Origin: Candidatus Desulfofervidaceae bacterium
Lineage (GTDB): Bacteria; Desulfobacterota; Desulfofervidia; Desulfofervidales; Desulfofervidaceae
Assembly (NCBI GenBank): GCA_027038965.1
Contig: JALWFG010000018.1
Location: forward strand, 62,001-126,000
Direction of reading: 5' to 3'
DNA length: 64,000 nucleotides
The translations under genes were made by a program, and so were the position numbers. The notes under the pieces are model-generated. The model searched no databases, was not told where the DNA came from, and saw only the letters and a program-made list of their open reading frames with translations. Positions 54,874-59,094 of the stretch are shown piece by piece (the stretch's first letter is position 1; the number at the start of each line of letters is the position of its first letter).

Positions 54874-56718
54874 TTAACGCTCAACAGGTAAGATGATAAC
54901 ACAAGTTGTGCCTTTACCTATCTCACTCTCAAATACAATAGTTCCTCTATGTCCTTCTATAAGTTTTTTAGAAATAGCAAGCCCTAACCCACTGCCTTTG
55001 GACTTGGTTGTAAAGAAGGGATCAAAAATTTTTTTAAGGTCCTCTGGGGAAATTCCTTTTCCGGTATCTTTAACCGTAATTTCAATATTATCTCCCCTTA
55101 AAGCAGTAGTCACTGTCAAGGTCCCGCCTTCAGGCATGGCTTCAATGGCATTTTTTAAAACATTGAGTAATACCTGTTTTATCTGTCTTTCATCCAATAA
55201 GGTCTGAGGAATTTTCTTATCTAATGTCTTAACTAATTTAATCTTCTTCTCATTCAATGTGGGTCCTAACAAAATGAATATCTCTTCCAAAATTTTGTTA
55301 ATATTAGCAAGAGTAAATTGAGGTTTAGTAAATCTTGTAAAATCGCTAATATCAATAAGAAATTGGTTTAGTCTTTGAATTTCCTCAAGAATAATCTGGA
55401 GCTTTTGACGATTTTTCTCATCTTGACTCGATTTCAATAACTGTTGGGTAAAACCACCAATTATTATTAAAGGATTTTTGATCTCATGACAAATATAAGA
55501 TACCCCTCGACCTATGGTAGCCAGTCTTTCTGATTGCAAGATTTTTTCTTCCAACTCCCTTTTTTCTGTTAAATCTCTAAATACCGCTACAGTTCCCATC
55601 CTTTCGCCTTTTTCTGTAAAGATTAAGGCCGCAGAAAGCCACACAGGCACAGATTCTCCCGTTTTTTTCAAGACTTCTGTTTCATAATTTTTTAGCTTAC
55701 CTTTCCCTCCAAAGGCATCATCATATAAATCCCGCTCAATTCTCTTGGCCAAACCCGGGGGAAAGAGGTCCTTAAATTTCATCTTTCCAACCACTTCTTC
55801 ATGTGAATAACCGAAAATAGATTCTGCCCTATCATTAAACACCACAATGTTTCCTTCTGCATCTGTTCCAACAATGCCATCAATTGAATTTTCAATAAGA
55901 TTTCGCTGGAAGTCATACATTCGTTTTAATCTATCCCGAGATGACTTCAAATCAGAAGTTAGTTTTATTAAACTTCTTTGCATTTCTCTAAAGGCAGTAG
56001 TCAACTCCCCTATTTCATCCTTCGTCCGTACAGGGGGAATCTCTTTATCAAGGTTGCCAGATGCGATAGTTTTGGCAGCAGAGGTTAATCTTCTAACTGG
56101 GACGACTACCATGTAATGCAAGAGGGCACCAATTAGGCCAAATAGAAGTAAAAGCGTAATCAAAAAACTAATTATCAAACTGTTTCTATGATGTTCCAAC
56201 TTCTTCTCCACGCCATTCCAATCAAACCCAAGGGTCAACACTCCCAGTATTCGCTCTTCACTTCCATGGCATTTATAACAAGCCTTTTCATTAAAAATAG
56301 GAACGGCATACCTATATACCTTTTCATTCAACCTAGTTTCTATACCACTTGTTAATTTGTGAGAATTTAAAGCTTGCAAAGTTATTTTAGAAGTAGTAGG
56401 CTTACCAATCCTCTCAGGGGTGCCACTATATTTAATCACACCTTTCAAATTACAAAGATGAATTAACCTAAGATCCTTTAAGGCATTGATTCTTTCTAAG
56501 ATTGCTTGAACATACTCCATTTCTCCATCTAGCATAGGATACTCTATACTTTTCATAATGCTATCTGTAATATCAAAGGCCTTTTTTCTTGATTCTTCTA
56601 AAAAAACATTTTCATAGGTTTTCAAATCTCTGTAAGTAAAGGTAGCCAAAATTAAGACAAGAACTAAACCCAGACTTACAAGGAGTTTTACTCTTAGACT
56701 ATATAATAGACTAGCCAT
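54874..56718 (-). CDS. Sensor histidine kinase with periplasmic c-heme (CXXCH) sensor
   Basis: 614 residues. Membrane segments at about 10-28 and 181-202 enclose a periplasmic domain of about 150 residues containing one CYKCH (147-151), so heme c is likely bound and may be the redox or gas sensor. HAMP (about 200-255), PAS (about 270-390), HisKA with His near 411 (ICHEIKNPL) and HATPase (505-614; DTGKGI, GSGLGLAI) follow. The layout recalls DUF3365-type heme sensor kinases. Two nt after a tetraheme cytochrome gene; no receiver protein is adjacent, so the partner is elsewhere. Confidence 0.9.
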   Translation of the reverse strand: MASLLYSLRVKLLVSLGLVLVLILATFTYRDLKTYENVFLEESRKKAFDITDSIMKSIEYPMLDGEMEYVQAILERINALKDLRLIHLCNLKGVIKYSGTPERIGKPTTSKITLQALNSHKLTSGIETRLNEKVYRYAVPIFNEKACYKCHGSEERILGVLTLGFDWNGVEKKLEHHRNSLIISFLITLLLLFGLIGALLHYMVVVPVRRLTSAAKTIASGNLDKEIPPVRTKDEIGELTTAFREMQRSLIKLTSDLKSSRDRLKRMYDFQRNLIENSIDGIVGTDAEGNIVVFNDRAESIFGYSHEEVVGKMKFKDLFPPGLAKRIERDLYDDAFGGKGKLKNYETEVLKKTGESVPVWLSAALIFTEKGERMGTVAVFRDLTEKRELEEKILQSERLATIGRGVSYICHEIKNPLIIIGGFTQQLLKSSQDEKNRQKLQIILEEIQRLNQFLIDISDFTRFTKPQFTLANINKILEEIFILLGPTLNEKKIKLVKTLDKKIPQTLLDERQIKQVLLNVLKNAIEAMPEGGTLTVTTALRGDNIEITVKDTGKGISPEDLKKIFDPFFTTKSKGSGLGLAISKKLIEGHRGTIVFESEIGKGTTCVIILPVER

Positions 56719-57256: not shown

Positions 57257-58192
57257 CTATTTCTTCCCTCCTGTAGAAACCGTCTTAGTTGGCAAGTTGT
57301 GAGGATCTATATGGCAAGTCAAACAATTCGGGAATTTTTTAAGCAAGGCTGCACTATGAGGCTGTTCATGGCACTCTTGACATTTGGGGATATAGCCATG
57401 TTTGGTGTGACATTCAACACACGCAACATCATGATGTTTACTCTTGTTAGCCGCCAATGTTTTGACTATATCACCATGGCAAGCACTACAAATCTCGTTT
57501 GAAGTATCTGGCTTGAAGACCATGGGACGTGTTGGACTATGCACTGGATGACATTCCAAACATTGCTGATTAGTAGTTAAACTAGCCACATGAGGTTCGT
57601 GACAGTCCAAGCACGAGGGGATATAACCGTGTTTTTCATGGCAAAAAGAGCACTTTTGCTGGGCATGCTTACTAGGAAACTTTTTCATCTCTGCTAAAAT
57701 CTTGGGATGACACTTGTCACAATTTGCTTCTAAAACATCGCTCATAGGAACCCTTCTAGGCGCATGAGCCTCAACATGACATTTTTGACAATCTTTCAAC
57801 ACAGGGGCATTCTTCCCATGAGGATAGCCGTGACAATCGACACACTTAGGCACAATCTTATTCCAAATCTTTGCAGCCCTAAATACATGATATACTTTAT
57901 GGCAATTTGTGCATTGAAATTGGTGTTTCCCACCTTCCTTTAAAATTGTCTCATAAACTGAGGTGTGACAGCGTCCACATTCAGCAGGAGTCATAGGTTT
58001 TATTTCTGGAAGATACAACTGCTGCTTTTTTGATTCCTTTTTAGCTTCCTTTTTCAAGACTTTTGCTGCCGCGGCTTCTTTTTTAGAAGTTGGTGCAGTA
58101 GGCTTCTCTTTAATCTGAGGCTGAACACAGCCCACCAATGCAAGGGCCAAAACCAAACTGATTCCACCTAAAAAAGCAATTATCCTTTTCAT
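57257..58192 (-). CDS. 12-heme cytochrome c lipoprotein
   Basis: 311 residues. A lipoprotein signal with lipobox LVGC (Cys near 22) is followed by a Lys/Ala/Pro-rich linker and 12 CXXCH: CGRCH, CTNCH, CVDCH, CQKCH, CDKCH, CSFCH, CLDCH, CLECH, CSACH, CVECH, CQECH and CLTCH. Many are followed by a histidine within 2-6 residues, suggesting bis-His hemes. It is a paralogue of the gene upstream (shared NKxKHHD and AALLKKFPNC-like endings). Likely anchored in the inner or outer membrane and facing the periplasm. GGAGGGG ribosome site; terminator downstream. Confidence 0.9.
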   Translation of the reverse strand: MKRIIAFLGGISLVLALALVGCVQPQIKEKPTAPTSKKEAAAAKVLKKEAKKESKKQQLYLPEIKPMTPAECGRCHTSVYETILKEGGKHQFQCTNCHKVYHVFRAAKIWNKIVPKCVDCHGYPHGKNAPVLKDCQKCHVEAHAPRRVPMSDVLEANCDKCHPKILAEMKKFPSKHAQQKCSFCHEKHGYIPSCLDCHEPHVASLTTNQQCLECHPVHSPTRPMVFKPDTSNEICSACHGDIVKTLAANKSKHHDVACVECHTKHGYIPKCQECHEQPHSAALLKKFPNCLTCHIDPHNLPTKTVSTGGKK

Positions 58193-58204
58193 TTACTCCC
58201 CTCC

Positions 58205-58915
58205 TTATTTTACCAAAGCATGGGCATCATTATGACAGTCTATGCACTTAGGATATTTGGCCAACATTGCAGCTGGATGTGGAGTCCCATGGCAGGTTTC
58301 ACAGTCAGGCACTACCCCATGTTTATTACGATGGCAATAAACACAAGCCAAATCATGATGCTTGGTCTTATTCTTAGCTAGGGTATTTACGATATCATCG
58401 TGACATGGGGCACAAAAGCTATTAGGAGTATTATCTTTGTAAGTAATCACCAATGGCTGATGTGGTGGGTGACACATTAAACAATCTTTGTTGGTCATTT
58501 CGGCACTATGAGGCTCGTGGCATTTACTACATTTAGGAACAAACCTATGTTTAACATGACAGTCGTTACATGCCAACTTAGTATGAGCACTAGGGTGTGC
58601 CTTCAACTGTTGCTCTTCTTTAGTATGGCAGGTAAGACACTCCTTTACCAATTTACCCTTAAAGGCGATATTCAAAGGTTCATGGGGATTCTGGTGACAA
58701 CCTAAACAATTAGCCAGTTTATAATGGGGCTTACCAGAATGGCATTCACTACATTTAGGAATGGCCTTCTCTTTGGGATACATAGGAGGATGAACTTGGT
58801 GACAATCTAAACAACCAACTTCTGTCTTATGTTTGCCCCCGTGTTCCTGAACTTGCTTAACAATTTTAGGATGGCATTTAATACAATCCTTATTGCTTAA
58901 CTCAGGAGCTTCCAT
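58205..58915 (-). CDS. 12-heme cytochrome c, N-terminus separated by a frameshift
   Basis: 236 residues from the first ATG of the frame. Twelve CXXCH: CIKCH, CLDCH, CSECH, CLGCH, CLTCH, CNDCH, CSKCH, CLMCH, CAPCH, CVYCH, CETCH and CIDCH. It has no signal peptide in this frame, although c-heme attachment requires export. A good signal peptide lies directly upstream in the next frame (58928-59031), broken by an A8 tract. One base added in the tract joins them. Paralogue of the following 12-heme lipoprotein, 12 nt apart. As written, the gene would yield an unexported product; the full gene probably starts at 59031. Confidence 0.8.
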   Translation of the reverse strand: MEAPELSNKDCIKCHPKIVKQVQEHGGKHKTEVGCLDCHQVHPPMYPKEKAIPKCSECHSGKPHYKLANCLGCHQNPHEPLNIAFKGKLVKECLTCHTKEEQQLKAHPSAHTKLACNDCHVKHRFVPKCSKCHEPHSAEMTNKDCLMCHPPHQPLVITYKDNTPNSFCAPCHDDIVNTLAKNKTKHHDLACVYCHRNKHGVVPDCETCHGTPHPAAMLAKYPKCIDCHNDAHALVK

Positions 58916-58927
58916 CTGCTGAGGCTC

Positions 58928-59031
58928 TTTTTTTTCTTCTCTGCTGCATAACCATCCCGAACTCCCACACTAAAGAAAAGGGCTATTACAAAAAAACACA
59001 CCACATGCAAACTCAAACGTCTCCAAGTCAT
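58928..59031 (-). other. Out-of-frame signal peptide of the 12-heme cytochrome
   Basis: ATG at 59031 with a GGAGGGGGAGGG ribosome site. The translation opens MTWRRLSLHVVCFFVIALFF and continues through SVGVRDGYAA, a signal peptide ending in AA, then enters the A8 tract (58928-58935). Nine or six As would keep the frame into EPQQMEAPELSNKDC of the cytochrome. Confidence 0.75.
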
Positions 59032-59065
59032 TCCCTCCCCCTCCATTTCCACTGAATTACTTCAC

Positions 59066-59094
59066 CAAATAACACTTATTAGAAATGATGTCAA
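59066..59094 (-). promoter_or_regulatory. Promoter of the 12-heme cytochrome pair
   Basis: Minus strand perfect -35 TTGACA (59089-59094) and -10 TATTTG (59066-59071), spacing 17, about 35 nt before the signal-peptide ATG at 59031. It supports transcription from the signal peptide start rather than from 58915. Confidence 0.55.

Follow-up and report, generated by a model that had tools for sequence, protein, structure and literature searches.

The DNA analysed here, referred to below as the window, is a stretch of 64,000 nucleotides that forms part of contig C18 of the Desulfofervidaceae genome G000 (2.19 Mb in 21 contigs). On its minus strand lies a gene for a 12-heme cytochrome in which the signal peptide and the heme domain are read in two different frames. 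The following features, taken from the sequence and, for the heme frame, also from Pfam matches, describe the locus.

57257..58192, minus strand: tandem paralog downstream, an intact 12-heme lipoprotein-type cytochrome of 311 aa, 45% identical
58205..58969, minus strand: open frame of the 12-heme cytochrome
58897..59031, minus strand: short zero-frame ORF of 44 aa (signal peptide and Lys-rich linker) with a TAA stop
58927..58933, minus strand: A_AAA_AAG heptamer in the zero frame, a putative slippery motif of dnaX-like type
58928..58935, minus strand: A8 tract at which the reading register changes
59033..59044, minus strand: purine-rich ribosome-binding site, GGAGGGGGAGGG
59089..59094, minus strand: TTGACA, the -35-like element of the gene's own putative promoter

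The start codon at 59031-59029 on the minus strand opens the signal-peptide frame, whose product reads MTWRRLSLHVVCFFVIALFFSVGVRDGYA-AEKKKK... and ends at the TAA stop at 58899-58897; the signal peptide and its cleavage between (G)YA and AE were assessed by hydropathy and by eye. The A8 tract begins about 96-97 nt into the gene, counted from the A of the ATG, at codon 33. The 12-heme frame is one base out of register relative to the signal-peptide frame, has its first in-frame ATG at 58915 (giving 236 aa) and contains all 12 of its 12 CxxCH motifs, and hydropathy analysis of this frame found no hydrophobic stretch or signal peptide ahead of the hemes. The first-pass annotation of this DNA had described a cytochrome frame lacking an export signal, an intact signal peptide and ribosome site just upstream in another frame, and a switch between them at the A8 run. 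All of this was confirmed, the coordinates and the arithmetic of the one-base offset both being correct.

The 12-heme frame scored above the cut-off for the Pfam families Cytochrom_c3_2 and Cytochrome_C7. The NCBIfam search found no close equivalog for the protein, and its score against the DmsE family decaheme model (TIGR03508) was 40.9 bits, below the curated cut-off of 192.2. A fold was predicted for the 12-heme domain with a mean pLDDT of 87.9; as the PDB fold search with this model returned no match at E <= 0.001 and only three weak matches, the model is uninformative on the function of the protein.

Upstream of the gene, the promoter and start region aligned with those of the three nearest relatives, namely HotSeep-1 (G002), G003 and G005, in all of which CTTGACA is identical and a TGnTAT-like block is also kept. 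The promoter proposed at first pass is thus supported by a perfect and conserved TTGACA, although the -10 element beside it is poor and a promoter consensus scan detected no standard site of its type upstream of the gene.

A homolog search of 395 genomes of the phylum (E <= 1e-30) matched the gene in 47 genomes, G000 included. From these matches a subset of 33 copies was inspected, comprising that of G000 and 32 more, drawn from 31 further genomes. Every one of the 32 relatives' copies, HotSeep-1 included, is a single ORF with an in-frame start and a strongly hydrophobic segment ahead of the first heme, G000 being the sole exception among the 33; 12 CxxCH motifs were present in 31 of the 32, and the remaining copy runs off a contig edge. 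Since the two frames in G000 together match this single-ORF layout, their pairing exceeds what chance would give, and by sequence comparison the gene is an ortholog of a conserved, predicted exported 12-heme c-type cytochrome of Desulfobacterota. Among the genes of the cluster that were compared, it has the highest conservation: identity to the three nearest relatives is 64-68%, whereas the large cytochrome reaches 52-54% and the NHL protein 43-49%.

Neither a frame break nor a comparable A-tract was found at the signal/heme junction in any of the 32 relatives' copies inspected. The break is, as far as these aligned copies indicate, private to G000, and a conserved recoding site was therefore rejected. 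The same-genus genome G001 yielded no match to the 12-heme gene, nor to its NHL neighbour, and matched the large cytochrome weakly; the search found no other genome of the species. The copy of HotSeep-1 (G002:C1:527706-528407) has 67% identity, 12 hemes, the same promoter element and, as in G000, a tandem 12-heme paralog downstream, but its signal peptide and hemes share one frame.

The heme domain of the G000 copy is undecayed. In an alignment of 32 sequences, from which the contig-edge copy (G070) was excluded, it matched the consensus at every one of the 59 columns on which 30 or more of the 31 others agree, and it kept all 24 His columns shared by 30 or more of the 32 sequences. Its terminal branch in the 12-heme gene measured 0.30, versus 0.18-0.25 for its sisters, and in the intact paralog the G000 branch measured 0.58, versus 0.18-0.36. 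As the branch of the 12-heme gene is not long next to that of the intact paralog, there is no sign of relaxed constraint, and a long-standing pseudogene was rejected because of the intact heme domain and the normal branch length. A perfect heme domain would also fit a base-call error or an efficient bypass. Loss of a partner MtrAB-type conduit was considered as a driver of decay, as G000 has neither the porin nor a close copy of the decaheme of such a conduit. This was not decisive, since four other genomes (G156, G268, G180 and G248) likewise lack the porin yet keep an intact 12-heme gene.

The reliability of the assembly at homopolymers was estimated from samples covering at most about 28% of the G000 genome. 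A coding-frame model was applied to 77 A/T8 runs of a 430-kb sample, a call being clear when it held on both sides of the run and on one strand: 28 of the 29 clearly coding runs were in frame, the exception being the 12-heme tract itself, and the rest comprised 47 unclear runs and one strand change. The HotSeep-1 sample gave 40 of 40 clear runs in frame, with 55 unclear. Of 112 A/T8 runs in 607 kb of G000, 80 fall within an ORF that is 100 aa or longer and extends 45 nt or more beyond the run in both directions. The remaining 32, the 12-heme tract included, are mostly located close to the ends of genes or in intergenic DNA. Genome-wide, 16 of the 27 interior A9-10 runs are well inside ORFs of at least 100 aa, and none of the 52 G000 genes with a homolog in the HotSeep-1 sample is split. 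Calls at comparable tracts are sound, although one isolated error would still fit these figures. Systematic under-calling of homopolymers was rejected, because A8 and A9 runs are in frame and the drop at A9 is common to HotSeep-1. A scan of the 607 kb for cases in which an ORF with a signal peptide meets a frame change gave five matches, among which the 12-heme gene was judged by eye to be the only genuine case. The candidate at C18:39327 was rejected, its long frame having its own signal peptide. The 17 other frame-switch matches from the coding-frame test have upstream open frames of 71-804 aa and look like ordinary gene junctions.

Both same-genus genomes contain contigs that end in poly-T tracts tens of bases long (G000:C13:87451-87547 and G001:C3:64744-64896). 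These ends are probably an artefact of short-read assembly, which suggests that the G000 assembly was built from short reads. In such data, consensus errors at A8 or A9 are rare.

Tract usage within genes was compared with expectations from a synonymous-codon shuffle of the genes in the G000 and HotSeep-1 samples. G000 genes do not avoid A8 (60 observed versus 60.3 expected), and T8 is mildly depleted (31 versus 45.1). A9 was observed twice versus 17.7 expected, these two being the only A9 runs counted in the sample, and A10 was absent versus 4.4 expected. The heptamer A_AAA_AAG, counted in frame, is over-represented (141 versus 80.1). HotSeep-1 genes follow the same pattern, with A8 at the expected level, A9 and longer depleted (A9, 4 versus 16.8 in its sample) and the heptamer over-represented. 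Genes of both genomes strongly avoid runs of A9/T9 or more, with a sharp threshold between eight and nine; nine is also described as the avoidance threshold in many genomes (PMC1088944, as far as consulted). The A8 tract class behaves as a mutable ceiling in genes. As A8 is undepleted and the heptamer over-represented, neither would be expected to slip much here, and a heptamer used so freely is unlikely to shift often.

Based on this evidence, we consider it very probable that a conserved exported cytochrome gene has here undergone a recent one-base register change or else contains an isolated base-call error. Between these, a genuine change by recent replication slippage is the favoured reading and is more probable than not: one base would have been lost when a lysine-codon A-run contracted. 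Translation from 59031 would then yield a secreted peptide of 44 residues, ending at 58897, whereas the heme frame might be entered at 58915 or by coupling; its product would remain in the cytoplasm, a compartment in which heme c is not attached. Only rare slippage during transcription, rare -1 frameshifting at the tract or re-expansion of the tract in some cells could give full-length exported protein, and if the allele is real, leakage at a low level is probable. A single-base consensus error, with the gene intact in the cell, is a less probable explanation that we regard as rather unlikely: the gene is otherwise perfect, its break falls within a homopolymer, and homology-validated singleton frame breaks are attributed mostly to sequencing errors by Antonov et al. 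2013 (in the parts of PMC3711429 consulted), but comparable tracts in this assembly read in frame and the probable short-read origin makes an error at A8/A9 rare. The singleton frameshifted genes and homopolymer indel pseudogenes covered there resemble the present case in being homology-validated one-base breaks found in one genome with intact homologs. Unlike such pseudogenes, the G000 gene has an undecayed downstream domain, which indicates a break that is recent, erroneous or partly bypassed. The first-pass annotation had named a base-call error, a broken gene and slippage that regulates export as possible readings; the former two hold most of the probability, and the last is not supported.

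Programmed or selected slippage would mean that the polymerase adds an A, or that ribosomes slip back by one base on A_AAA_AAG, with a defined share of the protein being exported as a result and the tract tuning cytochrome output. The zero frame reads AAG AAA AAA AAG and contains the heptamer at 58933-58927, and a -1 shift on it, or one added A in the transcript, would join the signal and heme frames. This geometry is not independent evidence, because the loss of one base from an A9 lysine run produces both the register and the heptamer automatically; a slippery-looking motif in a Lys-rich linker should be read with this caution, and only conservation or expression data can turn it into a mechanism. 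Downstream, a 78-nt fold was somewhat better than shuffled sequences (z -2.06, equalled by 7 of 200 shuffles), which is suggestive at most, and the other folds were unremarkable (z +0.62 at 40 nt, -0.24 at 61 nt and -0.23 for another); no convincing stimulatory structure was identified. Upstream of the motif, inspection by eye showed only GCAGAGAAG-type purines and no clear AGGAGG. In dnaX-type -1 ribosomal frameshifting, as treated in the parts of PMC4066793 consulted, the zero-frame heptamer and the direction of the shift are the same as here; unlike that type, however, the G000 site shows no convincing downstream structure or upstream SD-like stimulator, is not conserved, and uses a heptamer common in G000 genes. 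Unstimulated frameshift-prone heptamers in E. coli shift at only 2.1-10 times above a 0.055% background (same source). Transcriptional slippage has a precedent in Citrobacter rodentium tssM1, where an A11 tract slips at about 20-25% and yields about 20% full-length protein (according to the portion of PMC4256274 consulted). As in G000, the A-tract lies within a gene whose downstream domain is out of frame with its coding intact, but the tssM1 tract has 11 As and measured slippage, whereas that of G000 has eight, and the G000 break parts a signal peptide from a whole protein. With nine As in Thermus dnaX (PMC1088944, in the part consulted) and eleven in tssM1, these slippage cases have tracts longer than A8; within G000 genes, avoidance begins only at A9, which speaks against programmed transcriptional realignment at A8. 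The undecayed heme domain agrees with programmed slippage, but the absence of the site from all 32 relatives' copies and the free use of A8 and the heptamer in genes argue against it, and singletons of this kind are expected to be errors or recent indels (PMC3711429, in part). The recoding case is weak. An A8 rheostat, in which polymerase slippage and -1 frameshifting at the heptamer would let a small, constant fraction of the 12-heme cytochrome be exported in this relative of the methane-oxidation partner bacterium Ca. Desulfofervidus, is very unlikely; if it were true, export, and hence heme loading, would be a control point. Our literature search found no paper joining multiheme cytochromes, frameshifting and slippage, and a term search of PMC12977616 found no mention of frameshifts, indels or truncation; one of PMC12133095 likewise gave no match. 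Phase variation, in which the A-tract would act as a reversible on/off switch of the exported cytochrome, is a shade less probable still. Poly(A) near the 5' ends of genes has been proposed as a general switch (PMC2831843, as far as consulted), and the position of the tract early in the gene agrees with this; however, its length is ordinary for the G000 genome and it is not conserved in relatives.

The 12-heme gene forms part of a cluster of multiheme cytochrome genes, and its host family, the Desulfofervidaceae, includes a known syntrophic partner; whether the gene is truly broken therefore bears on electron exit or entry in these cells. Should the break be genuine, the function may be taken over by the paralog at 57257-58192, which lies downstream and is intact. 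Ahead of the 12-heme gene in the direction of transcription lie genes for an NHL protein, two large multiheme cytochromes, proteins judged PpiC-like by eye, and a 691-aa protein that has no family match and was taken to be a barrel. A tandem 12-heme pair, one member with a plain signal and one lipoprotein-like (57257-58915, minus strand, in the window), recurs across the phylum, and its role appears undescribed in the literature consulted.

HotSeep-1 is Ca. Desulfofervidus auxilii of the family Desulfofervidaceae (Table 1 of PMC10553843), the family to which G000 also belongs. In its genome the 12-heme pair is preceded by genes for a decaheme and for an MtrB-like porin, which belong to the GSU2203/GSU2204 families. 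This MtrB/GSU2204-type porin is split at an in-frame TGA (L058:15235-17460; G002:C1:525235-527460), which is probably a selenocysteine codon rather than a break, since the NCBIfam model names the family CXXCH-containing (seleno)protein. According to section 9 of PMC10553843, no periplasmic cytochrome gene adjoins the OmcKL-type conduit of HotSeep-1. If that conduit is the GSU2203/2204-like pair, as we infer, the locus L058:14199-19284 bears on the statement: an exported 12-heme cytochrome gene lies there 149 bp downstream of the porin's last ORF. Beside the cytochrome cluster of G000, a histidine kinase (54874-56718, minus strand, in the window) carries a CYKCHG heme-binding motif within a Tll0287/Mcp40H-20-like sensor domain, together with HAMP and PAS domains.
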